NCBI RefSeq assembly: GCF_032854445.1
Contig: NC_088306.1
Coordinates: forward strand, 1,178,501 to 1,242,500
From: Liolophura sinensis
Lineage: Eukaryota > Mollusca > Polyplacophora > Chitonida > Chitonidae
DNA: 64,000 nucleotides
Reading direction: 5' to 3'
A program made the translations under genes and the position numbers. The notes under the pieces are model-generated. The model was not told where the DNA came from and made no database searches. It was given only the letters and a program-made list of their open reading frames with translations. Positions 2,701-45,200 of the stretch are shown piece after piece. Numbering within the stretch: the stretch's first letter is position 1; each line of letters begins with the position of its first letter.

Positions 2701-2748
2701 TGTTAAGTCATTTCATGGTTAAATTAAAACGGAGTGAAAAAAACCTAC

Positions 2749-3990: not shown

Positions 3991-3995
3991 CTGGC

Positions 3996-4450
3996 ATGTA
4001 CATTATGTCAGTGTTTTATACATTATGTCAGTGTTTTGTACATTGTGTCAGTGTTTTATACATTATGTCAGTGTTTTATACATTGTGTCAGAGTTTTGTA
4101 CATTGTGTCAGTGTTTTGTACATTGTGTCAGTGTTTTATACATTATGTCAGTGTTTTGTACATTATGTCAGTGTTTTGTACATTATGTCAGTGTTTTATA
4201 CATTATGTCAGTGTTTTATACATTATGTCAGTGTTTTGTACATTGTCAGTGTTTTATACATTATGTCAGTGTTTTGTACATTGTGTCAGTGTTTTATACA
4301 TTGTGTCAGTGTTTTATACATTATGTCAGTGTTTTGTACATTATGTCAGCGTTTTGTACACTATGTCAGTATTTTGTACAACATGTCAGTGGCTTGTACA
4401 TTATGCCAGTGTTTGTATATTCTGTATTCTGTATACTATGTCAGTGTTTT
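3996..4450. repeat. Minisatellite, 20-bp unit
   Basis: About 22 head-to-tail copies of TACATTATGTCAGTGTTTTG. They vary mainly at A/G in ATTATG/ATTGTG and at TATA/TGTA, and the last copies are degenerate. A 20-bp period is not a multiple of three, so the array is open in all three plus-strand frames and yields spurious proteins of up to 199 residues. Confidence 0.95.
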
Positions 4451-6669
4451 GTTCCACCTCCCGACAAACTGATCAACTTAACATCGCATTTAAAACTTCA
4501 AACAGCTCCGTAATTGTACTCTAGGACTCGTACCTTGCGCAATGGGTCAAGTTGGTCATAGCCGCGATATAACTGCCGCCCCGCCCCCTCACAGGCATAG
4601 TCCCCCCTCCCCCCAACACATATACATTAATACATACGACAGGCATGTTTCATAATATCCAGACTAAATACCACACTTCTGTTTCGCATCTAAGCACATA
4701 ATGTATTTTGTGATATAAGGTCATCTGCATGCACATTTGGAATCCTAAGACGTTCAGTAACATATAGGCCTACACTTTCTAATCGTTCCCGCGCCCCCAG
4801 TCTTTCAGTGGTGTTTCTTTTTCTTTAAGGTGAACGTTTTCATTGTCGTTGACTTGGTATTGTCGACGTTCCAATTATAAATTTCATAATTAAAATAGAG
4901 GGATATACCAGAAGGGCGAGGGGATTCCTGCACGTATGTGGTACGTCTATCCGAATCATTTAGAGTGCTATACACTGATATACCTGATATATACACAGTA
5001 TATCTCCAGATATACCAATTCCGCTGACTTTTGCCCTCCTTAATGACTTTATCTTAAAATGATCTGCATTTTCCCATTAATCTAAGAAAACCTCCGATTT
5101 CAGTTGCACTGATGTTACTTTGCGCATGTGGACATGCGCGCATACAATGATTCATGACATTCAAATGTTTGCCAATACTTATGAACGTTTTTCCATCGCA
5201 TTATACAAACAATAGAGAAATGTGGAGCTATTTCAAAGACTACATATGTCGATCAATTTACACGGAAAGGAGACATTGCCAGGGGTCAGAGGTTACGCAT
5301 GCGCAATTTAGGCAATCAAATCGAATTGCCTCCGAACTGAACACTACTGACGCACCAAGTGGATAATACAGCTACACAGTAATCATATTCAACCATCTGA
5401 GTGTTACTTAACGCTACATACTCAAGACTGTTGGCAATGTTTGTACTTGTAATTTGGTGTGTTGAAGACGGAACTAAAAACTTTTTGTGAAGAACAAAAT
5501 CCTACAACCTCATTTCCAACAACACTGATCAGATTAGGACCCATGAGGTACGTTTTTCCACGCAATGGCGACTCGGGTCCAAGCTGGATGGGTCATTGTT
5601 CTCTTGTACTGGATGTGTGCAGCACTGATCCACGCTGTATCTGTACAATGTTATTGAGTGGAGCGTCAAATCTGGTGCCCTCGGCATGGTACTGTTTTAG
5701 AGAGGCATCACAACATATATGTCGGCAGTAAGACCAGACAGTTAAACCGCAAGCGAACAAACAAAAGAACTCTTTAGTACCGTGCTTTCCATCTGTTACA
5801 AAAAATATATAGAGGTATTTACGCTGTTTATTTAAAGCTTTGTCCTGAGGTCATAATCTGTAACGTGTTTTCCTCTAAGCCAAGAATTCTGCAACCTTCT
5901 GTTTTTGTTTTTTTTTATATATATAACTGGGTCTCTTTTATCTCCCTTTCAAGAGTTAACCCTTTTAGCAGTCAAGGGTCTGTGGGCAAATATAACTTAG
6001 TCAGCCAGGTGGTTTTCCTCCGACATATAAAAACAATTACCCACTGACTCCGCTTAAGTCATTTTACAGGGGTCCCCGAGACAGCGGTCGGTGCTCTTGT
6101 ACCGGGCAGCTAACAATACAGTACAACTCCACAATAAAAATATCTACTCTTAACCGGCGTGTTACATATGGATTCCCTACTGTTATAACGGCGACCCCAT
6201 CATACTAACGACCTACAGAAGCCAGACTACAGAGATATGCAACTGACGAGATATTTATCTTGTACAATCTCCCGAATTTTGTACACGTAACTAATGCGAA
6301 TACGTCAAATAGACACGAGATACACAGGTCAGCCTGAAAAGGTATGCTAGGTCATCACGCATACGTCATATCCAGCCTATACCATGTCTTCTGTAAGCTC
6401 TGCCTGATCTCGAAAGGGGACTCAACTCTTAGCTTGTTCGCACTGTCCTCTGAAATTTAGCCCTTACTCTAAACTATGTAGCTTCACACCACTGACACAA
6501 CTTGACAAGTTTGACCTTTGGATCCTTTTGAGCAAGAGTTTTTGTGTTTTCTGACATCATTTCCGGCTACATCACCATGATCCGAGTGATCTTGGCCTTT
6601 TTCAAGATCTGATGTTGTTCCCGTTGTATAAGAAGTGAGTCAAACATGGGAAGGTATGGGAAGATAATT
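4451..6669. other. No recognisable gene
   Basis: I find no coding sequence here. A 90-codon plus-strand open frame at 5459-5731 has no recognisable motif, and I could not establish splice sites around it. Confidence 0.4.
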
Positions 6670-15998: not shown

Positions 15999-16109
15999 CT
16001 GTTAGAACAAAGTGGGTATCAACGACGTCATATCCAAATCTCTGAAATGCAGAAGTTTGCCAATATGTGTGGGTTTAGTAACAATAACGTGAGGTGACGT
16101 TTTTCCTCC

Positions 16110-16205
16110 AGGTTCAGTCCGTTTTCCTCCCACCATGATGCTGGCTGCCGTCATATAAGTGAAATATTCTTGAGTACAGCATAAAACATCAATAAAAATA
16201 TATAT
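16110..16205 (+). mobile_element. SINE 3' fragment
   Basis: Carries TTTTCCTCCCACCATGATGC, the TGGCTGCCGTCATATAAGTG variant and GAGTACAGCATAAAACATC with an AAAAATATATA tail. Several CpG sites of the consensus have become TG or CA, so it is an older copy. Confidence 0.85.
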
Positions 16206-17006
16206 ACTTCATTCGGAACTATTCGAGGATTTCCGTAAACTGACATGAAGTCTCGGCTTGACCAGTGAATCATGCACGACGGGAGCCAGACATCGTAATT
16301 TCGGGACTGTTCGAGATTCCGTCATTACGTCGTATGCGCTCTCGGTTAAACACAGATAGATTAGCGGACTATCGACACACCTGTTGCCATAAGTCCTTAC
16401 AACTGACGAGTGATGCGGACGTTTGATTGGTCGATGGTAGAGCAGCTGTTGTCAGACAGAGGCACGTCCAGCCGAGCACGCGGGAATCGATCAACACAGT
16501 GGTTAGGGAACGTCTCATAATCACAAGACAAATAGAGTCTAATATTTCTTAATTAAAAGCAAGTAAAATGTTAATTTGAGGGCCTAAGTATATTTAACTA
16601 ATTAAATTAATTAATTGCTGATTATGTCTCACACAATTTTAACTTTTCCTCCTCTCTAGTTCGTATGATACATACTTTCCCGTGGTGGAATATTCGGCCT
16701 TTTTAACTCGACCCCTTGAGTTAATCGATGCCACGACTTCAGAAGTTCGTCTACGCCAAATGACGTGGTCGAATGTTGTTTACACGAAAAACAGTTTCAG
16801 ACTTACGAGTTCAGTTTCATTATTCCCGTGTCCTTAAATCGAGATTGGAGCTCAGAAGCGAATCTTATCAGAGCAAAACTTTATTTTTAAGCAAGAAACG
16901 TGGAATAATTTGGAGACTTTTCACGTGTAAAGCAGATCTCGTGGACTACACACAACATCAGGGCACAGCCCTACAAGACGTCGGATTACACTGTTCCCTA
17001 CAAGTC
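16206..17006. promoter_or_regulatory. Presumed 5' flank of the H-G-V-L-M-H gene
   Basis: Sequence immediately upstream of the signal-peptide exon. An in-frame ATG at 16773 would add 78 residues ahead of the signal peptide. I prefer the start at 17007 because it places the hydrophobic segment at the N-terminus; the upstream part is then 5' UTR. I see no convincing TATA box, so the promoter itself is not located. Confidence 0.3.
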
Positions 17007-17094
17007 ATGTATATTCTAAAACTCCTTTTTTTAGGAGCTTGTTTCTCTGGTAACCATGGAAAGCCAACGAAAAATTCAGAATCTGCCGAAGCTG
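17007..17094 (+). CDS. Exon 1 (signal peptide) of acidic H-G-V-L-M-H repeat protein
   Basis: Encodes a short N-terminus with a lysine followed by the hydrophobic run L-L-F-L-G-A-C-F-S-G, which looks like a secretion signal. A polar stretch N-H-G-K-P-T-K-N-S-E-S-A-E-A follows. It ends in a strong donor, G|GTAAGT, leaving one base of a glycine codon. The terminal exon at 24021 begins after a good acceptor with the two bases needed to complete that glycine, so the join preserves frame. The pairing is inferred from phase, strand and the expectation that the cysteine-containing acidic protein is secreted; other exons could lie in the 6.9-kb intron. An alternative first exon at 23626-23668 has the same phase. 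A longer start at 16773 is possible. Confidence 0.55.
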
Positions 17095-17439
17095 GTAAGT
17101 TCCAAAAATTATTTTTAGTTTCAAGTTGGAAATTCACATAATTGGCGTAATTATTTTTGAAGTAATGGAACAAGCTTGCAGGTGACAAATCAGATCGGCA
17201 AGATAAATGGTCAAACAGAAATACAGATTTCACCTGTAAAAATAAACATCAATTCATCCATTGGTAAACAAAACTGTGTACAGACCCAGGTTCTATTTAA
17301 GAACTGAACTATTTAATATTTATCTATTTCATACTGAAGCAAAATTCCCACAGTCAGCTGTCAAATGTTTTCATGAATTCGTGTTAGATATGTATATACA
17401 CCCATAACTTACCTACTGCAGTATAATAAAAGACTTAGA

Positions 17440-17630
17440 GAGTAAAACCAGAGCGGCGACGACAGCCTGGGGCATGTACTTCTATATCTGACAAATTATC
17501 ACACGTAGCCAGTTTATTAAATGTCGTCTCCTGTCGATTTAACTCAGAGAGGATTTTATTCTAACTGTTCATGTAAATGCGTAAATAGTAGCAAATTACA
17601 TGCGCCCTAGCAGAATGACGTAAAAAGAGA
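17440..17630. repeat. Dispersed repeat, copy 2
   Basis: Second copy of the family at 10640-10830: GCGACGACAGC, TCACACGTAG, GATTTAACTCAGAGAGG, TTCATGTAAATG, AATTACATGCGCCC. It sits in intron 1 of the H-G-V-L-M-H gene. Confidence 0.5.
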
Positions 17631-17644
17631 TTTACATTATTGAT

Positions 17645-17758
17645 ATGCCGCTGACCCTGGCTCTGCCCGGTTTCCACCCACCATAATGCTGGCCGCCGTC
17701 GTATAAGGGAAATATTCTTGAGTACGGCGTAAAACACCAATCAAATAAATAAATAAAA
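17645..17758 (+). mobile_element. SINE 3' fragment
   Basis: Contains CTCTGCCCGGTTTCCACCC, ATAATGCTGGCCGCCGTCG and GAGTACGGCGTAAAACACC with an AAATAAATAAAT tail; close to consensus apart from GGGAAATATT. Head absent. Confidence 0.9.
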
Positions 17759-18097
17759 TATACGACCGAATCCACTCATAAATACACTCATATTTCAACC
17801 GTAGCTCATTTGACCTTTACCTGTTGTACCTTTATAGAACTTTGGCTGCCAAGAAATATCAAGCGAGGTTGATTAACTACGTGACTGGCTGTAAAATAGC
17901 CTCCAGATAAAAGCACGGTAGCCGGGTCGAAACAAAACACCTTTTGTTATTACGGGGAATGTATCTTTCACTAGCTTTTAAAAAAAGAAACCACGGTCGT
18001 ATGTTTACAGTCTTCAGTATCAGAACAGGGTATTAATTGCTTTTTACTATCTAAAAAGAAAAGATGAGAAAAGCCAAAACGATATACATTACATATA

Positions 18098-18176
18098 GGA
18101 AGCTAGCATGAGCTGGACGTGAACTCAGCTCCTGAGACAATGTGCTGCGCTAGCGCGCTAACCACGAGAGGGCGGA
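18098..18176 (-). mobile_element. SINE tRNA-head fragment
   Basis: The plus strand reads GCTAGCATGAGCTGGACGTG then TGCGCTAGCGCGCTAACCAC, the reverse complement of the SINE head and B-box region. The 3' domain is missing, the opposite of the usual truncation, so this is a deletion remnant. Confidence 0.75.
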
Positions 18177-18477
18177 GATTGCGGAGGTGAATGTAAGCTA
18201 GGTGAATAAATACACATATGTAATGGGAGCATGTTACCGATAACTGTGACCTTGGATATGTTGATTTGTAGCGACTATTTTGGGTTCCTGTTTACCTGTT
18301 TTTGTAACAGCAGTGACAGATACATGGCTACAGAACTGTCCCAATATCCCACCTTTTCCGGCGTATTACAGTCAATACCGGTATGTCAAGGATTTCTTAT
18401 TGAAACATTAATATTGTGTTTATACATTGATGTTGATGATATTAAACCATGTGTATAGGGACTGAGCTAAATCACAT

Positions 18478-19075
18478 GCTGCGTATGATATCAACACTCT
18501 GTTCACATGATCCAACCACTGATGGTGTGATATAAACACTATGCCCCATCCACATGGTCCGATCATTTATAATATCATATCAACACTAAGCCTTGTTCAC
18601 ATGATCCGACCACTTACAGAATGATATCAACACTAAACCCTGTTCACATGATCCAACCTCTAACAGTATGATATCAACACTAAGCTGCGCCCACATGATT
18701 CATCCACTTATAGAATGATATCAACACTGAGCTCCGCTCACATGATCCAACTACTTATAGAATGATATCAACACTAAGCTCCGCTCACATGATCCAACCA
18801 CTTATAGAATGATATCTCACATCATCAACGATTTATAGAATGATATTAACGCTAAGCTCCGCTCACAGAATCCAAAGACTTACAGTATGATATCAACACT
18901 AAGCTCCGCTCACATGATCCAACCACTTATAGAATGATACCAACACTAAGCTCCGTTCACATGATTCAACCACTTATAGAATATCAACACTAAGCTCCGC
19001 TCACATGATCACGACTTATAGTATGATATCAACACTAAGTCCTGTTCACATGATCCAACCACTGTCATTTGATAT
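18478..19075. repeat. Minisatellite, about 47-bp unit
   Basis: Around 12 copies of a unit containing ATGATATCAACACTAAGCTC, CGCTCACATGATCCAACC and ACTTATAGA. One copy is shortened (ATGATATCTCACATC near 18810). The array lies in intron 1 of the H-G-V-L-M-H gene and carries no stable open frame. Confidence 0.93.
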
Positions 19076-19734
19076 AAGTAGAATATCAAAAACAATTTTT
19101 TTGATATATATATAGTCAAAAATGACTAAACTTTTGCGCTATAAATCTACGTTAGTTAGAATGTGTGTAACCATAAAATAAGCATCAGAGGCTGATACTG
19201 TTACCACACCGGATCACACGTACATGCTCATCTCAGCATCTGTCACCGCTATGTCTCATCCACGTGTTTCATTTTCGGGGGAGCTTGTCCTGTTTTCAGT
19301 CGATACTTGTATTCAGGGTGTAGATCGATACTATAAATTGCACAATGTGAGCGTGGCCTATTGTATTTATGATATCAATACTTGTAGCCCTGTTCATATT
19401 TTGTGCGATTTGTTCTAATCACTCAGAGAATTCAACAAAATTGCAATGTCTATTAATGGTTATTTATTTTAGTATAGAACCTAGAAATGGTATGAAACGT
19501 TGTCCAAGATTCATTCGACAAATCGATATTGTGAATTTCGTACGTGACATGACACCCCACGCAGTATCGGGAGGGACTCGACTCTCCTATTTCTTTTTTT
19601 GTTAATTCATATATTTATTTATGTACTCACTCACTATGAATTTCTTACATGACATGACACTCCACCCAGGCACAGTGAGTTGACACCCAGAGAGATCGGA
19701 AAGGAATCATTCTATCCTATTAATTAATTAATTA

Positions 19735-20015
19735 ATTAATTAATTTATTTATTTATTTATTTCTTTATCTATTTGATTTTTGACGCCATATCCATGGATT
19801 TTTCACTCATGAATGACGGTGGCTAATTTTATGGATGGAGGAAATTGGGGTAGCCGGCCGGGATAAACCAACAAACCTCACCGGACCCCTGACAAATCTC
19901 ATGACTTAATCCCGCCCCGAAACAGCGAGAGCTGGAGTTGAACACGACATCTTATCAATGATCTGACAATCTTACAGATCCAGATCTAACGCTCTGAGCC
20001 AGCCAGCCAGATCCT
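19735..20015 (-). mobile_element. Divergent SINE
   Basis: Begins with TTAATTAAT/TTTATTTATT runs, then a TTTGATTTTTGACGCCATAT block that parallels the consensus 3' domain. Its other end, GGAGTTGAACACGACATC followed by TAACGCTCTGAGCCAGCC, looks like a reversed tRNA head. It is considerably older than the main copies or belongs to a sister family. Confidence 0.6.
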
Positions 20016-20687
20016 GCGACATCCCACCCAGTCTGTTAAAGAAGTATCTCTCTCCCAGCCACCCCAACCCCTCATCCTATCCGCAAAAATGAAATTCTGT
20101 AAAATTTATTGTAGCATTAGCCCACTATAGCGACAAATTTTATAATACTTGTAAAGCTGTGAAAGCTTTAAGTACAATAGTTGCTGTCGAATTTTGTAAC
20201 GTAAAAATTTCAGCAACGAGAAACATGAAGCTATTACTATTTGAATAGACTGACAGTGTGACAACAACAACATAACTTTTTTATCTTGTGTATTGCACAG
20301 CCCGTATTCCAAGGTTCTGTTTGCAACCACTCTAGTCATGTCTAAACAGATAAAGACTCGATTTTGTGCAATCAGGCACTGATACGATCACAATAGGGAT
20401 GCTAACTTATTGCAACGTCAAGAAATTCAGAACGTACCGGTACCATCTGGCTTTAAGCATATAGATCGGCATGTCAGCCTCTTCCGAATTGCTCTAATCT
20501 GAATTTCAGACCGAATAATCCTCCGAATTCTGTTTTGCGGTATTTGTTTTGTTTTGCTTTGTTCTATTCGCATGAAATCTAACAGGTCCACACTGGCCCA
20601 GTAACGGCACCGATAACAGTAATATATTTGACAGATACATAACAAATATATACATTGTTTACGTATATAATATGTAAATAGACGGTC

Positions 20688-20800
20688 GTTGGTTTCCCCG
20701 GGCTCTGCTCGGCTTCCTCCCACCATATTGTTGGCCTCCGTCGTATTAGTGAAATACGGCGTAAAACACCAATCAAATAAATAGATGAATAAGTAAATGT
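20688..20800 (+). mobile_element. SINE 3' fragment
   Basis: GGTCGTTGGTTTCCCCGGGC, CTTCCTCCCACCATATTG and GGCGTAAAACACCAATC with an AAATAAATAGATG tail. A short deletion has removed the TATTCTTGAGT block. Confidence 0.85.
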
Positions 20801-21179
20801 AAATAGACGAAGATTACATTTGGCAATTGCATAATGTATAATACAATGTTACACACTAATGTATGTCGACGTAAGTAGAATCCCCAACACCCCGTGCTTC
20901 AATCCATTAAAATAACCACAGCTTTTTGCACTGATCATTAAACTGAACATTAACCTCAGTGAATATATTGATGTATCATGCGTGTTCATGTTGAAAAATA
21001 ATAAGAAGTCTGCGCTGTAACGCATATGGTACTTTTCCGAATATTAATTCGACTCGTTCTTTCGTTACTACTGTCGGAGAAATTCGAGAGGTGAGATCGC
21101 CTACCAACAAGTCGGCCAAACTCAAGCAGTGAGAAAGCGGTAGTGCAGTAAGAACTATAGCGTTGTGTGACGGAAAAGA

Positions 21180-22740
21180 TTGCTTCTTCGCTTGATATAT
21201 TTAAGTAAAGAAAAATGTCCTGTGATATTTAAGGCATCATACAAATGTCTGCAAACTTTTTATTATTTTTTTTTTTCGATGTTTTTTTTTTCATCCAGCA
21301 GTAACTTAATATTCTTGGATAATGTTTTATTTAAGGTCACTTTTATTACGATTTTCTGCAATCGATGTTTTCTACTCTTGTGGAACCTATGGTATTCTAA
21401 GAAGGTTCCCTTTATGAATAAAATTCCTTTCAGAATCCTAAAATCTATAAACTTTCCGTTTGTATCAATAAAATTTCGAATATTACATATATCCCATTTT
21501 TACACCAGTTTTTTTTATAACAAGAAGATGTTAGCAAAGGCTTGGATTGAAACATATCGGCTCGTTGTCTATGTTTTCAATCGATTTCATTTCTTGTATG
21601 GTTTTAGAGCTCAGCCCAGGGTTCGAAAACGTCTTTCCAAAAAGGGTTTTTGATCTTTTTCACTGACACTAGTTGTTAAGTCAGATACTATAGTATAAAA
21701 ATGTCCCCTAGAATATTTTGTATTGATCAGAGCTTGCCATTTTCTTTTATCTGCTAGGAGTAAGGCATCTAGGAAACGTTTACTACCGCTATGAAACTTG
21801 AGAGGTCAGTCATTCATTAACCACAGTGATGCTGAACTGGAGTTAGAGTCGAACGTTTTATTCTGCCACATCTGTTGTTCCAGATGAGTTTACAAATGAT
21901 ACAGTTCAACTCTACGATAATTTCTTACCAGATAACTAGGTGGAGGGATGGGGGATGGTGTATCAGTTTAGAATGAGCTTAATGGATACTTTGTCATACC
22001 GTAATTCTCCTAAATAAGGTTAGGTTTCTTTGTGTCCAATTTCAAAGTTGCTGTTTCAGCTCCTCCACTTTGTTTGCACAGTTCATTTCCCATAGGCTAA
22101 CACTAGAGAAATGGGTCTCTAAAACTTTAAATGCCTTCATTCAATCGACTTTGACATTCTTACTTAACCTGAAACCTAAGAACCTATCCATAATGCTTTA
22201 GTTTATTTCAATATTTATTTTGAGATCTGGATATTTTGTCTTAAATTTCTAACCCCTTTAACAAATGCTTGTAAAGATGTTTCCGAACTATCACGAATTA
22301 GCTGTGTATCGTCGGCATGTTGATTAATTTTGAAGTCTTAATTATTAATTGTAATGCCTTTTATCTTCTGGATCTATCATGGTCAGGACACCTTATATTT
22401 CGGTACATAGTGAAAAGTGGTGTGGTGAAAAGGAATCACCTTTTCTACGTCCTCTTGATATGTTAAAAATGTAGCTGTACTTAGATCACAGTACAAGACT
22501 TTGAGCCAGTGTTGTACGGAACCTCCAAAGGTAAAGGTTTTATCACCTCATCAATAAAGTTCCAAGAATTTGAATTCAATGCCTTTTTATTTTCAAAATC
22601 GATTGATAAATTAAATGCAAGGATATCATTTCCCTCGACATGAAACATGACAAATATTATTTTAATATTTTCTCCTATGTATCTGCCTGGAATGAATCAG
22701 TTATGAACGCGTACAAATTTTACTTTCCCCATCTCTTGTG
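21180..22740 (-). pseudogene. Decayed non-LTR retrotransposon reverse transcriptase (LINE ORF2)
   Basis: Minus-strand reading, with many stops and shifts, recovers the ordered landmarks of an endonuclease-type LINE polymerase. These are G-R-Y-I-G-E-N-I near 22705, L-S-I-D-F-E-N-K-K-A and S-W-N-F-I-D-E-V near 22580-22620, a D-D-T-Q-type active-site remnant near 22315, and I-W-N-N-R near 21880. Near the C-terminus are N-P-F-W-K-D-V-F-E-P-W (about 21640) and W-C-K-N-G-I (about 21500). The element is inactive: the catalytic region is broken by stops and frameshifts. It sits antisense within intron 1 of the H-G-V-L-M-H gene. The plus-strand open frame across 21180-21653 is its shadow. The start of the element (first ORF, endonuclease) was not found upstream. 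Confidence 0.85.
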
Positions 22741-23625
22741 GGCATTTCCAGTGTCCTCTTCGGTTTCTTTATCCTGGGGATTAAGAGACGGAGGGATATG
22801 AAGCTGTTTGTAGTTGTGCGTTTGTACCTGGCTGCTCTATCGAATTGAGTTTGATCTAGGGTGTACTTACCACACCATTATCGAAACACGACACGATAAC
22901 GATCCACAAGGAGGGCACAGAATTCCTAGAAATGAACAGATATGTTCTCAGAAACCAGATTTTAACCCACAAGAACCAATCAAAGGTCAAAGACACTAAC
23001 ACGCAAATAATCAGGCGACACCCTAGTCAGGCGAATTTCTATATATTGAAAATATATAGACATATTCAAAGAAAACGGATTAGGGTTAAACTGATCATAA
23101 ATTTACATGTTCCATTGTTCAGCTTGTATACCTGTTGACCCATGGATCTCAAACAGGATGTCTAAAGTGACGCTTACCCGACCCCCATACGGCACTTACA
23201 TCATAGCGCGTCTCATGTACATTTTTCCAACTGTAACTGTATTACACTCTTGGCCTAATACATTCTTCATATACCATGCTAATGTACCTTTAGATCACGA
23301 TAAGCGATACGGTTAGCACACACCTACAATAAACTGTGCTGAGCAATTCGACTGACGTCAACCCCTCAGTTTTGCCAAAGTTAGACTGATCTGGGCGCAA
23401 GACGCGTGAATGATATTGCTTTTTGGCACGAGCAAATTGGTGTATTTTTGTAATGTATGAGCGTACGAAAAGACAAGGCACGGGATACACCACCGCAACA
23501 TATCGTACCTGATAAACCCTCTGACGCCCAAGAAATATCATACCAGTGCAGATACATTTGACACTTAATACAAACTCAACATCTGAATAAGCTTGGATGT
23601 TTTGAACTTTTGAACGCCTTCTTAA
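22741..23625. other. Intronic sequence, no recognisable gene
   Basis: I see no repeats or recognisable exons. The minus-strand open frame at 23290-23667 (125 codons) has no known motif and lacks splice support. Confidence 0.4.
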
Positions 23626-23668
23626 ATGGATAAAGAAGGAGTTGCTGATTGGCTGGTGTGCGAGCAAG
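23626..23668 (+). CDS. Candidate alternative first exon of the H-G-V-L-M-H gene
   Basis: An ATG directly after an in-frame TAA opens a 14-codon reading (M-D-K-E-G-V-A-D-W-L-V-C-E-Q) ending at G|GTAAGT, a consensus donor. The leftover base matches the phase needed by the exon at 24021, only 350 bases downstream. If used, this would give a protein without a signal peptide. Phase agreement alone has a one-in-three chance, so this is a hypothesis. Confidence 0.25.
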
Positions 23669-23877
23669 GTAAGTTTAGGTGTCGTCTACTTGCTGAATTC
23701 TATGTACTGTACAGGATTTAACCCAGGAAATCCCATCTCCACTACCAGCCAATCAACGTCGTTTGTGTATGCGTGTGACTCACAGTTTGCTCCATCTGTT
23801 AGAATTTCTTTCTTTTCTTCCTCGAGTGCTAAGGAGTGTATAATTTGCTAAAAGTTAAGCGTTTACGTATAATAAAA

Positions 23878-23980
23878 TCCCCAGGTAAATTGACAAAAGG
23901 CTGTATTTCACTGATTACGTGTGATCATTTGCCAGGTATCACACTGTCAGATTTTACTCTTTACACTGTAGTCTTTTATA
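23878..23980. repeat. Dispersed hairpin repeat, copy 2, next to a splice acceptor
   Basis: Shares AGGTAAATTGAC, TTTCACTGATTACGTG, GTGATCATTTGCCAGG, TATCACACTGTC and TTTTACTCTTTACACTG with 15330-15460. Its T-rich end runs towards the polypyrimidine tract of the acceptor at 24019-24020. Confidence 0.6.
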
Positions 23981-24020
23981 TCTATAATTTATGCTGTGTG
24001 TTTTTTTCTGTATGTTGTAG

Positions 24021-25339
24021 GCCCGTGTATCGGAATGGACTGTCTACACGGTGTCCTCATGCACAACGACGAGAAGGTAGGTGAGGATCACAAAGCCGAG
24101 GATAGCTACATCCAGATGAAGGAGGAGCTAGCCACAGGCGGTGAGGAGGAGAAAGCGGGACCGTGCGAGGGGATGGACTGTCTACACGGGGTTCTCATGC
24201 ACGGGGACGACGAGCAGGGGAACAAGGGACACGCCGAGGAGTCCATAGGACCTCAGAAAGAAGAAGAGCCCACGGAAGCGAAACCAGAAGATCCCAACGA
24301 GTACTTTCACGGCGTGCTGATGCATAACGGAGACGAAGACGAAATGAAGCGTGAGAGAGATGCTGGGGACGTGGTGCAAATGGAAATCCCACAAAACCCG
24401 CAGAGTCTGGACGAATACTGGCACGGCGTGATGATGCATAATGATTCGGAGCCCGGTAAACGCCATCACGACGGTCCGCACGACGAAGACGCGGACAGCG
24501 ACGCTGCGGGGACGTCGGGAGAGAAGGTGAAGCCTCTGTCTGGGGACGACCTAATGCACGGGGTTCTCATGCACGGGGACGAGGGGAACGCGGGAGGGCA
24601 CGATCATGGCGAGGTGGAGGGAGAGGGGCAGAGGGGCACCGAGGGGAAGGCAAAGCCGCTTTCTGGAGACGACATGATGCACGGGCTCTTGATGCACGGT
24701 GAGGAGGACGGAGTAACCGACCACGCTGACTCCGAGTACGAAGAGAGTCACCCGAAGAACGTGAAGGCTGGGCCGGACACGGACAGTCTCCACGGCGTGT
24801 TGATGCACGGAGATGAAGAGCATGGAGTCAACCACGAAGACGACCACAAGAGACTCTCAGAGGAGGAGGAGGAGGAGGAGAGCGTTGGAGAATACGGGAT
24901 CGATCCTGAGTCTATCCTGCATCCGGAGGGGTATGAAGACATGGACCATAAAGATATCGACCTCAACAAAATCAATTCCGAGGACAAGGATGATTTCAAC
25001 GAATGGCAGAAAGAAGGGAAAAAATCTTCCGATGAAGAATTTGAAGATTTGAAATCGGACTGGCGTGAAACGCTAGGGTATATCACGGACGGGATTCTGT
25101 CGGACATCGATCTTATGAAAAGGCGCTATCTCGCGAGGTTCTACACTCAAGAGGAAGAGGAGGAGCAGGAAGGGGAAGAGCCGACGGCCGCGGAAAAGCT
25201 GGAAGCTGAGTGGTTGAATAACGCGGATTCTAACGACATGAGGCACGAGCTGAATCTGATTGGTGACACTGGACCAATCGGCGAGACGCCACACAGGCAC
25301 GACAACAAGAAAAAAGAATTCAAGAAAATTGTCTTCTGA
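24021..25339 (+). CDS. Terminal exon: acidic protein with seven H-G-V-L-M-H repeats
   Basis: Follows a clear acceptor (TTTTTTTCTGTATGTTGTAG). Joined to exon 1 it gives 468 residues; this exon encodes residues 30-468. Seven copies of [LFWM]-H-G-[VL]-[LM]-M-H-[NG] have first histidines near residues 39, 85, 126, 164, 209, 250 and 287, spaced 37-46 apart. The first two are preceded by C-I-G-M-D-C and C-E-G-M-D-C, the only cysteine pairs. Linkers are rich in Asp, Glu, His and Gly. The C-terminal third has no motif copies but is helical-looking and acidic (E-E-E-E-E-S, W-R-E-T-L-G-Y, R-R-Y-L-A-R-F, A-E-K-L-E-A-E-W) and ends with a basic K-K-E-F-K-K-I-V-F. I do not recognise the family. Acidic His/Met-rich repeats suggest binding of divalent or copper ions; that is inference. 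The exon is clearly GC-richer than its surroundings, as a maintained coding region would be. Candidate poly(A) signals lie at 26017 and near 26044. Confidence 0.85.
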
Positions 25340-25437
25340 AGAACATAGACTTAAAATGACATTGGTGCTTCGTTTCATTCTGTGGTCTGCGAAATTCCTA
25401 GAAGCCAAGGAGATGCATGGGTATTATCGTAACCCAC

Positions 25438-25504
25438 AACATTAACCCTGGGAGACCAACATTAACCCTGGGAGACCAACATTAACCCTGGGAGACCAAC
25501 ATTA
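25438..25504. repeat. Short tandem repeat, 20-bp unit, in presumed 3' UTR
   Basis: Three exact copies of ACATTAACCCTGGGAGACCA followed by a partial one, starting about 100 bases after the stop codon of the H-G-V-L-M-H gene. Perfect identity implies a recent expansion. Confidence 0.9.
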
Positions 25505-27449
25505 AACCGCGCATTTATGCAAATACCTGTGCTGTGATACATAGAATTGTGAATAGATTTAATACTGAATTGGGCATTCAACTTAAATACTGTGACAGAA
25601 AAACATTATATGTACCAAACTGAACATATTCCAGAAATGATTAAGGGAGAAGTACAAGAGACGAATGGTTGGGATACAAAAGTGAAGTTTGGTTGAATAG
25701 CTAGTAGCTGACATTTCCCCCAGCTTGTTGTGTTTTAAATTATATCTGAATGTGTCTCAAATGTTTTATACCCATAACCAGATATCTAGGGTGTGCAGAA
25801 TGGCGTACAAACAGGACATAAAACATATATAACCTGTTGTACAATTGTTGCAATATTATGAAAAGATAATGCTCATATGTCACAAATGTTTTACATCCGA
25901 TGCAAAGGTCAACTTGACGAAAATACCGTTTAAGCGTCTTCAGTGTGTGTTGACCTGGGTGTCTGGCGCTTCCTGAGCTATGAATCGACCTATATTCACC
26001 TGGTATTAATACGTACAATAAAATACTAATTATACAGTTTGTGTAATAAATAAGAATCTTATTCATTTGTGATCTTACGTTTTAAATTGGATATAATGTG
26101 GTATAATGTATGTAATATACAACATCACGTGATGCAGGATGTGGTGGTGACTTAAACAAAAGACACAGGTAAAATGAAGATAGTATGAGGAGAAGAACCA
26201 TTGAAAACTGTAACTGCCAACACTTGCACCTTTTTTTTGGAATTTTTTCCTTACGAGTCACATAGATAACACGTCGTCAGTGGAGTCACACAGCTTTGTC
26301 AACGTTTTTATGTTCAGTTAAGGATAGAATTACACATCTTAATTAATGTAGTGTGCGCCTATTCATAAAAAAGCAAGTCTGACATTAAATAGCTGTTTTA
26401 AGACCAGAAACTAGTCGCTGTGACGTCACCGGTGATATTTATTATCAGTATCGTCTGTAAGCCTGCCTTACACATAAATATATTCGACTATATTTAACTC
26501 AGTGGAAAGAAATTCAAAAAAAATTAAAAGAAAGTATTTTCAGATACATTTCTCAAAGGCCTTTCCATCAATGCTGTCTTCATTTTTTATTTCTTTCCCT
26601 TCAAACGTAAGATGACGTAGAGTCAAACCAAAGCGTGCACGGAGGTCTGCTAACTGACTGTGCCACCATTATGCGTCAAATTTTGATGTCTGCGTGTGTA
26701 GGTCAAAGTGGTGCTAGTTACATCCTACACAAGGCCTATATGTTTTAAAATTCGATTCTTCTTCGACGTGTTTAATTTTTCACGGACATGCCCGCAGTCA
26801 GAATTATAGCTGGCTGAAACCGGAGTGTCTGGAGGAAACCACCAAGGCTTACCAGGTACCTGACTAACCTCCTGGCTTCCTGAGAGCTGGATCTGAACAC
26901 GCGACCCAATTGGCCAAGGACCTGATGATCACTGAATGTCATCCAGGACAGCTGACATATACGTAAATAAGGGCTACTTCATGAAGGGAATCCTGGCGTC
27001 AAAACAGACATCAGTATACCAGTCGTTAACCATGGAAGTTCCAGGTCAATAAACGCAAAGCGAATTCTCAAAACACAGTTCAACACCAAAGCAAAGGTAT
27101 AAAATTAAGACGAGTTCTTGCTAATAGAAACAGTTAACAATTGGCAGTGATGTTGGAACACCTTTAATGCCAAGTTTTGACTGATTTTCTCATACACTTT
27201 TATTAGGTGGTTCTAGTAAAATAAAGCTGTGCTAAACGCTCGTTCACCAAAATGTTCTTGCGATTACTGAAAAGTTCATCCAGCAGACGACTGGTATATC
27301 TCAGCACTCGTATACGTATGTCTCAGTTCTAATGCTGTTGTTTTAGCCTGAATGGACTCACCCGACCTCAATTTCACCATATACGGTACAACCTTATAAG
27401 GAATACCTCGTCGAGAATTTCGTGACATTTAGCAAAATCCAAATTATCA
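25505..27449. other. Presumed 3' UTR and intergenic sequence
   Basis: Two AATAAA signals (26017-26022 and near 26044) could end the H-G-V-L-M-H transcript. A faint, old SINE-like segment on the minus strand spans about 26770-26940 (tail-like TTTAATTTTTCACGGACATG, head-like CTGAACACGCGACCC). No gene was recognised. Confidence 0.4.
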
Positions 27450-36200: not shown

Positions 36201-39200
36201 TTAATCATAGGGCTGCCAGTACCCAAAAACAAATGTGTACTTAATCATGGGGCTGCCGGTACCCAAAAACAAATGTGTACTTAATCATGGGGCTGCCGGT
36301 ACCCAAAAACAAATGTGTACTTAATCATAGGGCTGCCGGTACCGAAAAAACACAGGGCTTCCCGTACACAATGCTGCCTTGCTGGATTAAATTAAAGCTT
36401 GCACACTGCTAGATTGTCGGCCTGTCACTGAGGCAGAGCACAGTCGAGTACATTTTCTACTGACACTTTATGTACCTAAATATGAGAATCTTTCGTATTT
36501 CCAACAAAACCACAGGTGGCAATAGTGGCAACAACAGGATATAGACATGTTTTTCACTTCGTAGCAGTAACGACACAAGCTTATAAATTTCAACAAATAT
36601 TTCATTGCTGTTTAAGGTCATGCTGAAAAATTTTGCACTTGAATTAGTATGGAAACTGGGTAAAACCACCAACCTTGGGCGAACTTTCCCATATGTAACA
36701 TACAGATAAGCAACAAAATATTGGTGGAGGAAAAATGGTCTCCAGCGAGTATTATGAGCGATTAAACGGCAGCATGAACGTCACCTAAGCCTCATGAAGT
36801 GTGTCATAGCAAACGAGTGATAAAACGGCAGCCTGAACGTCATCTAAGCCTGATGAAGTGTGACACAGCAACTGAACAACAGGTTTGGCATTCACTACGA
36901 TACATGTATGTATGCGCATGTCAGACGGGAAGTACACGTAACTCACTTCTGAGGCTTGATAGGAGCGACTCCGTCGTTCTCCTCCAGGGAGGAAATATCA
37001 GGGAAGCTGTCATCGTCTTTAAAACCCTGAGAAAAAACACAGACGTAAGTATATGGTCATGAAAAATGTCTTATGAAAAAATGTGAGAATGTTACATCCT
37101 CAACCTGATAACCTTTCAGCACAAATGTGTTCATGTCTTAACCTGATAACCCATCAGCACAAATGTGTTCATGTCTTAACCTGATAACCTTTCGGCACAA
37201 ATGTGTTATGTCTTAACCTCATAACCCATCAGCACAAATGTGTTCATGTCTTAACTTGATAACCCATCAGCACAGTGTTCATGTCTTAACCTGATAACCC
37301 ATCAGCACAAATGTGTTCATGTCTTAACTTGATAACCCATCAGCACAAATCTGTTCATGTCTTAACCTGATAACCTTTCAACACAAATGTGTTCATGTCT
37401 TAACCTGATAACCCGTCAGAACAAATGTGTTCATGTCTTAACCTGATAACCCATCAGCACAAATGTGTTCATGTCTTAACTTGATAACCCATCAGCACAA
37501 ATGTGTTCATGTCTTAACTTGATAACCCATCAGCACAGTGTTCATGTCTTAACCTGATAACCCATCAGCACAAATGTGTTCATGTCTTAACTTGATAACC
37601 CATCAGCACAAATCTGTTCATGTCTTAACCTGATAACCTTTCAACACAAATGTGTTCATGTCTTAACCTGATAACCCATCAGCACAAATGTGTTCATGTC
37701 TTAACCTGATAACCCGTCAGAACAAATGTGTTCATGTCTTAACCTGATAACCCATCAGAACAAATGTGTTCATGTCTTAACTTGATAACCTTTCAGCACA
37801 AATGTGTTCATACCAAGTTAGACACCTCATATTTAGTGGACTAATTCAGTTTTATTTTTCATTTTAGATTCTTACATGAACAGTCTTAATGTTCCATGAC
37901 ATCGAGTCAATGTACACAAATCTACCTTTTCCTCCAAGTTGTACAAAAGATGAACTCTGATGGAAATATTAAGACTCTCAGGGAAAAAAATGTTTCAATG
38001 TAATAGTTTTAAGAAATTCTATCTATTTTTCATCACTCAGTTTTAACTGTTATTTTACTCTTTACTGTATACGTAAACTCTCATGACATCACAGATTTAT
38101 CACGGGGATTTATCACGGAGTTTGTGAAAACAGTCTGGCCATCTTGAGATGAGGAGCATTAACCATATCAAAGACAAACCATACACAGGACCGTGGTCAT
38201 AGCAAACTTAGTTCTGTCCTCGTTATGAAGTGCACAACTTTAACATTACTTACTTCTGTCAGATATAGGCCACAAAGGCCTACTTACAACAGACATAACA
38301 CATAACACATGCTTGTGAGAAAGTGTTATTTACACAAAGGCATCAGCACCATGGGTGAAAGGAACTGAAGTGCTCAGCGTGAACCACTAACCTCTGGCAA
38401 GTTTCTAACAAACTTTACCATACATGAAATACTACGCTGAGATGGTCCTTAACCCTTATATGCATAAAAGATGAAAAGGGCATCAAAACCTGGACATCAA
38501 AATATCACTGTAAAACTGCTAAGTCAAATCAAAGAAATTGTACTTTCAAAGAGTGATTCCTCAAAAATCATTGGTTTTCTTAAGATGCGATTGGGTACAT
38601 TTAAATTTATCAGAATAAAGAACATGTAAGTTCATGGACTTGAAATGTGTGTTCGAATTTCTGTAGAATGAAAGTACTTACTGGCAGATCATCATCTTGA
38701 CCATGAGATGACCCCATAGTGTCCACAGCCCCGGCTGGCTTCTGACCTTTACGACCCTGAAGAGAAGCAACACAGTGATGAGATTCGCTTTTCACAGTAC
38801 ATGTAGTTTGTGGGGCATGTAATGGAAACATGTCTGCACTACTCTGAGTTACATGTACAATGTCAAAAGCACATAATGATGTGACATGAGGCATGGTGTC
38901 TCTTAGAGGCATGACCCTTTTCTGTGACATGAGGCATGGCCTTTTTCTGTGACATGAGGCATGACCTTTTTCTGTGATATGAGGCATGGCCTCTGTGACA
39001 TGAGGTGTGGCCTCTGTGACATGAGGTATGGCCTCTTTCTGTGACATGAAGCATGGCCTCTTTCTGTAACATGAGACATGAGCTTTTTCTGTGACATGAG
39101 GCATGACCTTTTCTGTGACACGAGGCATGACCTTTTCTGTGATATGAGGCATGGCCTCTTCCTGTGACATGAGGTATGACCCCTTTCTGTGAAATGAAGC

Positions 39201-42200
39201 ATGACCTTTTTCTATGACATGATGTCCCTTCTCCGTCATACATTTTCTGAAAATTCTCCTGGTGAGTCTTCAATAAACTGTAGGTGCCCAAATTCCTCAA
39301 GCTTTTTGTATATGAAAGAGAAACTTTCAGTGCAATTTATGCACATGTTTTAAGTTGATTTTGGACACAAAACTACATTAGCTGGAGTGGCCAGTTTCAG
39401 GGCTTCAGAGTAATGCCTTCAGAATAACCTTGAATAAACACTGTGCCAGCATGCAGAAAGGTTGAAGAATTACAGTTAGTTAACCACGTCATCATGAACA
39501 AATATAGCCCTGTTGAGACTTATTCATTTGTCTGACTGGTGCTAAACACCTTGCTTAAGGATTCTTCACTAAAGACACCTTTGACCTTTGCCAGGTACCT
39601 GAAAAGTCTCCTGAATTAATGGCACTGGATTTAAACATGCAAATTAATTGCTTTTGCCATAAACATATCATAACTATTTCTCATTTTTTTTTCTTCCTTT
39701 CATCAGACAGGAGGAGATAACTTTTGTATTAGACATACACTTAGCTGGAACTCGATGGAGCGTGAGAGCTCAGCCACTTTCTGTCCTTTAGGCGCGGCTA
39801 CGGGTGGCCTGGCTTGACTGGTCACATTACCCGAGGTAGGCTTCAGGTCCAGTTCTTCTAAATCACTGTAACACATCCAAAGAGCGACTGACTGATTGAT
39901 TGAAAACACTCGTTGATAAACAAAATAGATGCATTAATCGGAGGGAGGTGCAGTCTGTGAGTTGTGTGCCCTACTGAACAAAATTTTGTGGAGTTGAACA
40001 AAATGTTGTGATGTTCTACAAAATGCTGTCACGTCATGCACACACCTGAGAAATTGTACGCTGTGTTGTGACATTGCCTACCTGACACCGTCAGAATCCC
40101 AGTCACTGATGTTGTCCGGGGGTCGAGTCTGTATAGGTGGCTGTGCCCTGGGTGAGGGTGAAGCCCTGGGGCGAGGCACGGGGCGCGAGGCCTGGGGGAA
40201 GCCGAGGCGCCCGTCTACCTGACCTTCATCCTCAGAATCCTCCTCCTCCTCCTCGTCACTGTCCCAGTTTGTGCTCGTCCATTCAGTCGTTGACCTGAGC
40301 ATGACAAAGAATGAAGGATTACCAATTAATGCCACATCTGCAGTATTACAACTGTGTCGTGAGGTGATGTTAGAATCAGGTAACAATTGTGGATTTCAAA
40401 ATGAGTCTTTTGTCCACCCTCCATACCATGTTTTATTAGCATTCTGTCACCTCCATCACCATTTCCTATCAGTATCAATGTCTTAATAACATCTATTAAT
40501 TTGTATATCACACCCTCACCAATATTTTCGCATGTACTACCACCTACTAGTTGGCATGTCTTTCTATCAGCTGTATGTTGTACCATCTTCTTTATCTCAG
40601 CATCCAAGAGGACATCAAAAAGAAAAAGAAGCAAACCAAAAACATGCTGATGTTGAATTAATAAATCAGTGACACACCCACTTCCCCTTTCTGCGCATTC
40701 ATACACTCACCCTGTACTCTGCAGAGGTGTGTTTGTCCCATTTCTCCATGGAGAGGTGGATCTCTGAGTTGGTTTGGGCGGGACTTGGTGACTGGGCGGA
40801 GCTTGGCGGTTTATTGGCGCCTGCTGACTGGGAGTGGGTTGGTGATGGACGGGTGATTGGCGTGTCCTTGGCATAGGCCCAGAAGCAGCAGGTCTACGGG
40901 TGTCAGAAGAGGGTCTAGAGCCTGAAGCAAGGTTTCCCTGGTGCACGTTAACGGATCTACTGCTGCCATATGTGCTGTTTGAGGCTGTTCTGTTACCTGT
41001 TACCAGTGATGGTTACAATTTATTACACTGTACATTACGCAAAAAATATTGCAGGACTAAAAAAATCCAAGGGTACATGTAGAGAGGGGGGAAAATTCCT
41101 CCACTAACATTCAAATCTATGCACATATCAACCTTCCTTCTCGATGGGGGACAAACATACAAATGTACGCATATATCCACCTTCCTTCTCAACAGGTGAC
41201 AAACATACAAATGTACACACATATCCACCTTCCTTCTCGACAAGGGACAAACATACAAATGTATGCACATATCAACCTTCCTTCTTGACAGGGACAAACA
41301 TACAAATGTATGCACATATCAACCTTCCTTTTACACAAGGGACAAACATACAAATGTATGCACATGTCAACCTTCCTTCTCGACAAGGGACAAACATACA
41401 AATGTATGCACATATCCACCTTCCTTCTTGACAGGGACAAACATACAAATGTATGCACATATCCACCTTCCTTCTTGACAGGGACAAACATACAAATGTA
41501 TGCACATGTCAACCTTCCTTCTCCACAAGGGACAAACATACCAATGTATGCACATATCCACCTTCCTTCTTGACAGGGACAAACATACAAATGTATGCAC
41601 ATATCCACCTTCCTTCTTGACAGGTGACAAACATACAAATGTATGCACATGTCAACCTTCCTTCTCCACAAGGGACAAACATACCAATGTATGCACATAT
41701 CCACCTTCCTTCTTGACAGGGGACAAACATACAAATGTATGCACATGTCAACCTTCCTTCTTGACAGGGACAAACATACAAATGTATGCACATATCCACC
41801 TTCCTTCTTGACAGGGGACAAACATACAAATGTATGCATATGTCAACCTTCCTTCTACACAAGGGACAAACATACAAATGTATGCACATATCCACCTTCC
41901 TTCTTGACAGGGGACAAACATACAAATGTATGCATATGTCAACCTTCCTTCTACACAAGGGACAAACATACAAATGTATGCACATATCCACCTTCCTTCT
42001 CGACAAGGGACAAACATACCAATGTATGCACATATCCACCTTCCTTCTTGACAGGGGACAAACATACAAATGTATGCACATGTCCACCTTCCTTCTTGAC
42101 AGGGACAAACATACAAATGTATGCACATATCCACCTTCCTTCTTGACAGGGACAAACATACAAATGTATGCACATGTCAACCTTCCTTCTTGACAGGGAC

Positions 42201-45200
42201 AAACATACAAATGTATGCACATGTCAACCTTCCTTCTACACAGGGGACAAACATACAAATGTATGCACATATCCACCTTCCTTCTACACAGGGGACAAAC
42301 ATACAAATGTATGCATATATCCACCCTCCTTCTTGACAGGGACAAACATACAAATGTATGCACATGTCAACCTTCCTTCTTGACAGGGACAATCATACAA
42401 ATGTATGCACATATCCACCTTCCTTCTCCACAAGGGACAAACATACCAATGTATGCACATATCCACCCTCCTTCTTGACAGGGACAAACATACAAATGTA
42501 TGCACATGTCAACCTTCCTTCTACACAAGGGACAAACATACCAATGTATGCACATATCCACCCTCCTTCTTGACAGGGACAAACATACAAATGTATGCAC
42601 ATATCCACCTTCCTTCTCGACAAGGGCAAACATACAAATGTATGCACGTCAACCTTCCTTCTTGACAGGGGACAATCATACAAATGTATGCATATGTCAA
42701 CCTTCCTTCTACACAAGGGACAAACATACAAATGTATGCACATATCCACCTTCCTTCTCGACAAGGGGCAAACATACAAATGTATGCACATATCCACCTT
42801 CCTTCTTGACAGGGACAAACATACAAATGTATGCACATATCAACCTTCCTTCTCCACAAGGGACAAACATACAAATGTATGCACATATCCACCTTCCTTC
42901 TCGACAAGGGGCAAACATACAAATGTATGCACATGTCAACCTTCCTTCTTGACAGGGACAAACATACAAATGTATGCACATATCCACCTTCCTTCTCGAC
43001 AAGGGACAAACATACAAATGTATGCACATGTCAACCTTCCTTCTTGACAGGGACAAACATACAAATGTATGCACATGTCAACCTTCCTTCTTGACAGGGG
43101 ACAAACATACAAATGTATGCACATGTCAACCTTCCTTCTCCACAAGGGGCAAACATACAAATGTATGCACATATCAACCTTCCTTCTTGACAGGGACAAA
43201 CATACAAATGTATGCACATGTCAACCTTCCTTCTTGACAGGGGACAAACATACAAATGTATGCACATGTCAACCTTCCTTCTTGACAGGGGACAAACATA
43301 CAAATGTATGCACATGTCAACCTTCCTTCTTGACAGGGGACAAACATACAAATGTATGCACATGTCAACCTTCCTTCTTGACAGGGGACAAACATACAAA
43401 TGTATGCACATATCCACCTTCCTTCTCCACAAGGGCAAACATACAAATGTACGCATATATCCACCTTCCTTCTCAACAGGTGACAAACATACAAATGTAC
43501 ACACATATCCACCTTCCTTCTCGACAAGGGGCAAACATACAAATGTATGCACATGTCAACCTTCCTTCTCGACAGGGGACAAACATACAAATGTACACAC
43601 ATATCCACCTTCCTTCTCGACAAGGGACAAATATACAAATGTATGCACATATCCACCTTCCTTCTCGACAAGGGCAAACATACAAATGTATGCACATATC
43701 CACCTTCCTTCTCGACAAGGGGCAAACATACAAATGTATGCACATGTCAACCTTCCTTCTTGACAGGGACAAACATACAAATGTATGCACATATCCACCT
43801 TCCTTCTCGACAAGGGGCAAACATACAAATGTATGCACATATCCACCTTCCTTCTCGACAAGGGCAAACATACAAATGTATGTATATGTCAACCTTCCTT
43901 CTACACAAGGGACAAACATACAAATGTATGCACATATCCACCTTCCTTCTTGACAGGGACAAACATACAAATGTATGCACATATCCACCTTCCTTCTCGA
44001 CAAGGGGCAAACATACAAATGTACACACATATCCACCTTCCTTCTCGACAAGGGGCAAACATACAAATGTATGCACATGTCAACCTTCCTTCTTGACAGG
44101 GGCAAACATACAAATGTATGCACATATCCACCTTCCTTCTCGACAAGGGCAAACATACAAATGTATGCATATGTCAACCTTCCTTCTACACAAGGGACAA
44201 ACATACAAATGTATGCACATGTCAACCTTCCTTCTCGACAGGGGACAAACATACAAATGTACACACATATCCACCTTCCTTCTCGACAAGGGACAAATAT
44301 ACAAATGTATGCACATATCCACCTTCCTTCTCGACAAGGGCAAACATACAAATGTATGCACATATCCACCTTCCTTCTCGACAAGGGGCAAACATACAAA
44401 TGTATGCACATGTCAACCTTCCTTCTTGACAGGGACAAACATACAAATGTATGCACATATCCACCTTCCTCCTCGACAAGGGGCAAACATACAAATGTAT
44501 GCACATGTCAACCTTCCTTCTTGACAGGGACAAACATACAAATGTATGCACATATCCACCTTCCTTCTCGACAAGGGACAAACATACAAATGTATGCACA
44601 TGTCAACCTTCCTTCTTGACAGGGACAAACATACAAATGTATGCACATGTCAACCTTCCTTCTTGACAGGGACAAACATACAAATGTATGCACATATCCA
44701 CCTTCCTTCTCCACAAGGGGCAAACATACAAATGTATGCACATGTCAACCTTCCTTCTTGACAGGGACAAACATACAAATGTATGCACATATCCACCTTC
44801 CTTCTCGACAAGGGACAAACATACAAATGTATGCACATATCCACCTTCCTTCTCAACAGGTGACAAACATACAAATGTATGCACATATCCACCTTCCTTC
44901 TCGACAAGGGACAAACATACAAATATATGCATATGTCAACCTTCCTTCTACACAAGGGACAAACATACAAATGTATGCACATATCCACCTTCCTTCTCGA
45001 CAAGGGGCAAACATACAAATGTATGCACATATCCACCTTCCTTCTCGACAAGGGCAAACATACAAATGTATGCACATATCAACCTTCCTTCTTGACAGGG
45101 ACAAACATACAAATGTATGCACATATCCACCTTCCTTCTTGACAGGGACAAACATACAAATGTATGCACATGTCAACCGTCCTTCTTGACAGGGACAAAC

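Follow-up and report, generated by a model that had tools for sequence, protein, structure and literature searches.

To our knowledge, the storage and delivery of transition metals in the secretory pathway and outside the cell are poorly known in animals. Among described calcium-binding proteins, HRC has a signal sequence, tandem histidine-containing acidic repeats, and a poly-glutamate run, and binds calcium with low affinity and high capacity, as set out in the available text of PMC6171002. SilE, and PcoE by similarity, are characterised in the accessible parts of PMC5008109 and PMC10080550 as disordered histidine- and methionine-rich proteins that soak up soft metal. In chitons, the radular teeth matrix protein 1 (RTMP1) is presented in PMC6351634 as a repetitive protein of 539 amino acids with a predicted signal and a histidine-rich region, and the available part of PMC7850002 reports its mRNA to be without an iron-response element. 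The histidine-rich EP-type shell proteins of Mytilus contain a C1q domain and 14.3% histidine, and a calcium role has been suggested for them by analogy with HRC, according to the accessible text of PMC4517812.

The locus described here lies in a stretch of 64,000 nucleotides of the chiton Liolophura sinensis (contig NC_088306.1, positions 1,178,501 to 1,242,500 of the forward strand), called the window below. Its main coding exon, on the forward strand at 24021-25339, is delimited by an open frame, a phase-1 acceptor, and a rise in GC. An AG stands just before it at 24019-24020, and the exon carries the two remaining bases of a split codon and then 438 codons up to a TGA stop at 25337-25339. 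When 16000-26999 is divided into 500-base blocks, the GC fraction is 0.55-0.58 in the two blocks filled by the exon, 0.47 in the block that it fills partly, and 0.33-0.45 in the other 19. Joining 17007-17094 in phase to this exon regenerates the 468-residue product proposed by the first-pass annotation, and the acidic nature claimed for it is borne out by a predicted pI of 4.47 and a charge of about -78 at pH 7 (residues 16-468). The exon product consists of 16.2% glutamate, 11.6% aspartate, 11.2% glycine, 7.1% histidine, 4.6% serine, 1.4% phenylalanine, and 0.9% tryptophan. Outside the signal sequence there are four cysteines, all within the first two repeat copies, and the last 156 residues are free of cysteine. 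A run of seven glutamates, read from the sequence, follows the repeat region on its 3' side (24860-24880, forward strand).

Beyond the stop codon, two hexamers resembling the AATAAA polyadenylation signal start at 26017 and 26045 (26017-26050, forward strand). A perfect 20-base tandem repeat of 3.5 copies occupies 25437-25505, about 100 bases past the stop codon in the presumed 3' untranslated region. An Rfam search of 16500-26600 returned three matches, all scoring far under the gathering scores, which were judged to be chance.

The repeat that sets this protein apart is short. Its copies are LHGVLMHN at 24044-24067, preceded by CIGMDC; LHGVLMHG at 24182-24205, preceded by CEGMDC; FHGVLMHN at 24305-24328; WHGVMMHN at 24419-24442; MHGVLMHG at 24554-24577; MHGLLMHG at 24677-24700; and LHGVLMHG at 24788-24811, all on the forward strand. 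The motif [LFWM]HG[VL][LM]MH[NG] had been reported to occur seven times at a spacing of 37-46 residues. All seven copies are indeed present in a single uninterrupted frame, at spacings of 46, 41, 38, 45, 41, and 37 residues, and not one copy arose in 20,000 composition-preserving shuffles. In the alignment, H, G, M, and H are common to all seven copies, so that the invariant core is H-G-x-x-M-H. The residue that opens the motif varies from copy 1 to copy 7 (L, L, F, W, M, M, L), while the two positions after the invariant glycine hold V in 6/7 and L in 6/7.

The linkers between the copies had been said to vary freely, which is only partly true. Numbered from the first histidine of the motif, aspartate or glutamate recurs at -3 in all seven copies, proline at -8 in six, and a third histidine at +14, nine residues past the second, in five; copy 2 has this histidine one residue later and copy 3 has none. 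Shuffling within the linkers places five histidines in one column with p of about 0.0001, a value that treats the copies as if unrelated. The repeat unit thus extends beyond the motif first noticed, and the full module reads P-x4-[DE]-x-[LFWM]-H-G-[VL]-[LM]-M-H-[NG]-x7-H, with proline in 6/7 and the last histidine in 5/7, set in strongly acidic linkers. Individual copies carry further residues: cysteine at -2 in copies 1 and 2, methionine at -1 in copies 5 and 6, and a second methionine inside the motif in copy 4.

Selection on the motif itself had also been proposed, and the codons agree with it. Across the copies, the seven motif codons give pN 0.13 and pS 0.77, a pN/pS of 0.17 that is rough because pS is near saturation; extended to 14 codons, the comparison gives 0.41. 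The residues are kept despite differences at third codon positions, which places the constraint at the level of the protein rather than the DNA. The copies are mutually related, and the counts of invariant positions are therefore not independent. It could be argued that no functional gene exists here and that the frame is a chance or decayed one, as it occurs in a single copy and no relative was found in the libraries and genome searched. In contrast, 438 stop-free sense codons, a pN/pS below 1 between copies, the GC rise, and splice sites in phase make that account extremely improbable. Judged from its sequence, the exon appears to be a constrained and unusual coding repeat, the function of which we can only infer.

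The reading that we prefer, and hold tentatively, is that of an intrinsically disordered, putative metal-buffering protein, probably secreted or in the lumen of the secretory pathway and perhaps restricted to chitons. Each module, with its two invariant histidines, one invariant methionine, and usually a third histidine, would take up one transition-metal ion. Copper would be the first candidate metal for the HGxxMH...H sites, and the cysteines of copies 1 and 2 and the extra methionines of copies 4, 5, and 6 may act as added ligands. By analogy with HRC, the aspartate/glutamate linkers could give low-affinity, high-capacity binding of calcium or iron. Metal, and pH, might then make the chain compact or cross-linked, and the protein would in this way store metal and pass it on, either outside the cell or within the secretory pathway. 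An invariant methionine would fit calcium less well than a soft metal, for instance copper, and calcium would then be bound by the acidic linkers.

Counts of ligand pairs bear on this reading from both sides. The 468 residues contain seven H-x3-M pairs, whereas 3,000 shuffles of residues 16-468 averaged 1.34 and never exceeded 6; Met-His pairs number nine, against at most 5 in the shuffles. Metal binding is further favoured by the invariance of H, G, M, and H in every copy even though the preceding residue varies, by the low pN/pS over the seven motif codons, and by the fixed distance of the third histidine in 5/7. On the other hand, the nine H-x4-H pairs only equal the highest count among 3,000 shuffles, copy 3 lacks the third histidine, and the invariance and the pN/pS come from related copies with pS near saturation. 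Moreover, the conserved glycine, valine, and leucine are not needed for binding metal and would equally fit a hydrophobic docking motif.

This last point leads to a different account, in which the protein is a multivalent scaffold: each repeat would be a short linear motif with a hydrophobic V-L-M core, and the acidic disordered chain would dock seven copies of one folded partner. The histidines would make docking sensitive to pH, and metal would play no part. Several features suit such a scaffold: the invariant glycine, V and L each in 6/7, a hydrophobic side chain at -1 and an acidic residue at -3 in every copy, and linkers that look disordered in the predicted models. Docking would not, however, need an invariant methionine beside an invariant histidine, nor a third histidine at a fixed distance in five of the seven copies, and we regard the scaffold as a serious but rather unlikely explanation. 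As the short conserved unit can be made as a peptide, the metal question is directly testable. If the unit is not a metal site, it would be a multivalent motif of a new type, carried by a disordered protein.

Disorder itself was assessed with AlphaFold2. Run on a single sequence, the 439-residue exon product has a mean pLDDT of 41.9, with block means of 30-45 over the first 290 residues, whereas the C-terminal 156 residues alone reach a mean of 59.7. Within that piece a long helix is predicted at residues 37-98 (24977-25162, forward strand), where block means are 70-82 for residues 31-90 and 58 for residues 91-100. The models weakly suggest that the repeats are disordered and the tail is helical, since both were built from single sequences with no alignment. 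The lack of confident structure in the repeat region is consistent with metal buffering, even though low confidence of this kind is weak proof of disorder. The predicted C-terminal helix could serve as a partner-binding or anchoring part.

Acidic granins are likewise disordered, and the protein was also considered as a granin-like or prohormone precursor cleaved at dibasic sites. In favour of this, the protein has four KR pairs, a number reached but never exceeded in 3,000 shuffles, which averaged 0.77, and one GKR, for which the shuffles averaged 0.09. However, these KR sites do not flank the copies in a regular way: linkers 1-2, 2-3, 5-6, and 6-7, four of the six between neighbouring copies, contain none, which makes a cleaved precursor highly improbable.

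Secretion of the putative metal buffer depends on its first exon, for which there are two candidates. Exon 1A, at 17007-17094 on the forward strand, encodes MYILKLLFLGACFSG..., is signal-peptide-like, ends in phase 1, and has a donor score of 10.5. Exon 1B, at 23626-23668 on the same strand and in the same phase, encodes MDKEGVADWLVCEQ, is without a signal peptide, and has a donor score of 12.6. Donor scores come from splice matrices that were not trained on this genome. A scan of both strands of the whole window for ATG exons of 40-399 bases with a phase-1 donor of at least 10.5 returned these two only, both on the forward strand and upstream of the main-exon acceptor. At a donor score of at least 10.5 and a hydrophobicity of at least 2.2, exon 1A is the sole candidate on either strand, although these cut-offs are its own values and were picked after it had been seen. 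With a donor cut-off of at least 4, there are 32 first-exon candidates whose ATG lies between 3001 and 24000; five of them exceed exon 1A in hydrophobicity, but their donors score 5.0-6.5. No internal exon of 30-899 bases in phase 1-1 was found above the set splice scores between 17151 and 24000.

The junction of exon 1A with the main exon reads EAG-PCIGMDC and resembles KAG-PCEGMDC of copy 2. This resemblance and the signal-like sequence, in phase with the repeat, lead us to favour exon 1A, as a predicted exon, for the start of the main product. The protein is probably secreted if that prediction is right, and the signal-like exon in turn favours a buffer in the secretory route. A secreted form is disfavoured by a further ATG that shares the frame and open stretch of exon 1A and lies at 16773 (234 bases 5' of 17007), as a start there would bury the hydrophobic stretch of exon 1A inside the chain. 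Exon 1B also tells against it, having the better donor. Its donor is the only one scoring at least 12 on either strand of the window, a TAA in frame immediately precedes its ATG, and it sits 352 bases 5' of the acceptor, in phase. Translation from exon 1B would give a cytosolic or nuclear acidic protein that binds metal or other proteins, alone or beside a secreted isoform. The signal-peptide-like character of exon 1A and the match of its EAGPC join to KAGPC of copy 2 speak against this, and a non-secreted product is, in our estimate, quite improbable. Two promoters giving secreted and non-secreted forms are possible.

Other open frames occur in the window. A long tandem-repeat array at 41013-47466 has several frames open on both strands, such as one of 586 codons at 45143-46903, and these look like artefacts of the repeat and not genes. 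Further repetitive stretches with several open frames lie at 3850-4524, 38610-39336, 55248-56061, and 58880-60231. On the minus strand, an open frame at 58076-58417 contains a C2H2 zinc-finger-like stretch with four Pfam matches, all below the cut-offs, and presumably resembles DZIP1. Another minus-strand frame, at 2708-3055, matches nothing in Pfam up to E 0.01, and we take it to resemble part of a monocarboxylate transporter.

The repeat had not been recognised as part of any described family, and the searches agree, giving no convincing match in Pfam, NCBIfam, or PDB sequences. The 439-residue product had no Pfam match up to E 1, and two C-terminal pieces had none up to E 10; within these limits there was no EF-hand domain. 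NCBIfam gave no family match, and a search of PDB sequences with the whole exon product was empty up to E 1. With the limit raised to E 10, a profile of the repeat had one PDB match, to a penicillin-binding protein (E 0.57), which was judged to be chance. The C-terminal part matched three lipoprotein or ABC-transporter binding proteins (E 0.04-0.05); these were also set aside as chance, their best stretches each having E above 2. Six short peptide patterns yielded 150 and 68 candidate stretches in the prokaryote and virus collections, none of which was confirmed by tblastn, and the string 'HGVLMH' was absent from the literature searched. The repeat family is undescribed in the Pfam, NCBIfam, and PDB sequence libraries.

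The chiton's own genome was searched as 632 contigs with 609,464,459 bases, in which the window is C12:1178501-1242500 and a missing match does not show absence. When the repeat region was used as a protein query with E allowed up to 10, the gene itself was the only match, with no second copy. The C-terminal part had one further match at E 0.27, which was dropped as chance and contains an internal stop. The pattern HG-x-x-MH followed by an RRN-type codon occurs 27 times, seven of them in the gene, whereas the pattern read backwards occurs three times. The excess of 20 outside matches over three may only reflect word composition, and we think the control count too low because the reversed pattern contains a CpG word. 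All 20 outside matches, read in 18 stretches, were rejected: none resembles the gene or has an acidic frame, and aspartate plus glutamate is at most 11% over the stretch read. At C11:13193200-13194500 on the minus strand, a repetitive stretch contains HGV-(L/V)-MH words three times. It is non-acidic, and its spacings are 59 and 249 bases, one of which is no multiple of three, which suggests that it is unrelated.

Chitons mineralise shell plates and iron-rich teeth, as described in the available part of PMC7850002, and the acidity and histidine content of the protein would suit a matrix protein of a shell plate, sclerite, or radular tooth. There, the polyacid would bind calcium or iron, the histidines would be stickers switched by pH, and the protein would form a gel or coacervate on chitin. 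The histidine-rich region of the novel tooth protein RTMP1, noted in the accessible text of PMC6351634, agrees with such a role. Against it, the protein has no Pfam domain of any sort and thus no known chitin-binding domain, and its composition, with serine as given above, is unlike that of Gly/Ser-rich RTMP1. No iron-response element was found among the Rfam matches in 16500-26600, which also counts against the matrix role, although RTMP1 mRNA likewise lacks one in the report cited above. Use in shell or matrix is a serious but rather unlikely alternative, and nothing seen here makes it preferable to a metal buffer of the secretory lumen.

The metal buffer gains some plausibility from a large copper protein gene in the same animal, with eight haemocyanin beta-sandwich domains at one locus. 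These domains stand in a row on one strand at C8:37880506-37891931 and are the only matches to the family listed in the genome. A more specific version of this reading would make HGxxMH(x8)H an undescribed animal metal-binding repeat, forming an HRC-like copper (or iron) sponge of the secretory pathway that loads haemocyanin, ferroxidases, or the radular tooth. We think this version quite improbable.

Set beside the known systems, the chiton protein resembles each in part. Like the histidine-rich EP-type proteins of Mytilus it is rich in histidine, but it has no C1q or other Pfam match. RTMP1 is likewise a novel chiton protein with a predicted signal, repeats, and a histidine-rich part. As described in the available text of PMC6351634, however, RTMP1 is Gly/Ser-rich and has a Trp/Phe-rich, chitin-binding-like part, whereas the present protein is Glu/Asp-rich with HGxxMH, and the two are set apart by this description.

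With SilE and PcoE it shares a His/Met-rich chain with repeated His/Met sites and predicted disorder, low pLDDT being the only sign seen of a SilE/PcoE-like chain when free of metal. In the accessible parts of PMC5008109 and PMC10080550, these proteins show that disordered His/Met metal sponges occur, which supports a metal buffer. In contrast, they are bacterial and periplasmic while the chiton protein is from an animal. The SilE motifs described there are HxxM and MxxH, whereas the 468-residue chiton product has one HxxM, no MxxH, and seven HxxxM, and the H-x3-M-H spacing of its motif weighs against metal buffering. SilE is described as having no cysteine or aromatic residues, and the chiton protein has both.

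HRC is compared here as given in the available text of PMC6171002. Its repeat model PF10529, of 15 positions only, did not match the protein up to E 1; the genome search with it was empty and detected none of 14 controls. HRC has over 30% acidic residues, 13% histidine, and a run of 13 glutamates, and the chiton protein has about 28%, 7.1%, and seven. The HRC repeats are nearly identical around an HRHRGH core, whereas the chiton repeats are diverged around HGxxMH. HRC also ends in a C-terminal CxxC cysteine cluster that the chiton protein lacks, and because of this and the different core the chiton protein is not classed as HRC. Even so, tandem repeats that combine a histidine-rich sequence with an acidic stretch are present, as seven copies in acidic linkers, and an N-terminal signal would be supplied by predicted exon 1A, which is signal-like, but not by alternative exon 1B. 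The order of parts, namely a signal (predicted in the chiton), His/acid repeats, poly-glutamate, and a C-terminal region, is shared with HRC and, together with the low-affinity, high-capacity calcium binding of the latter, favours a metal buffer. The chiton protein presents a new type of repeat within a known sort of protein.
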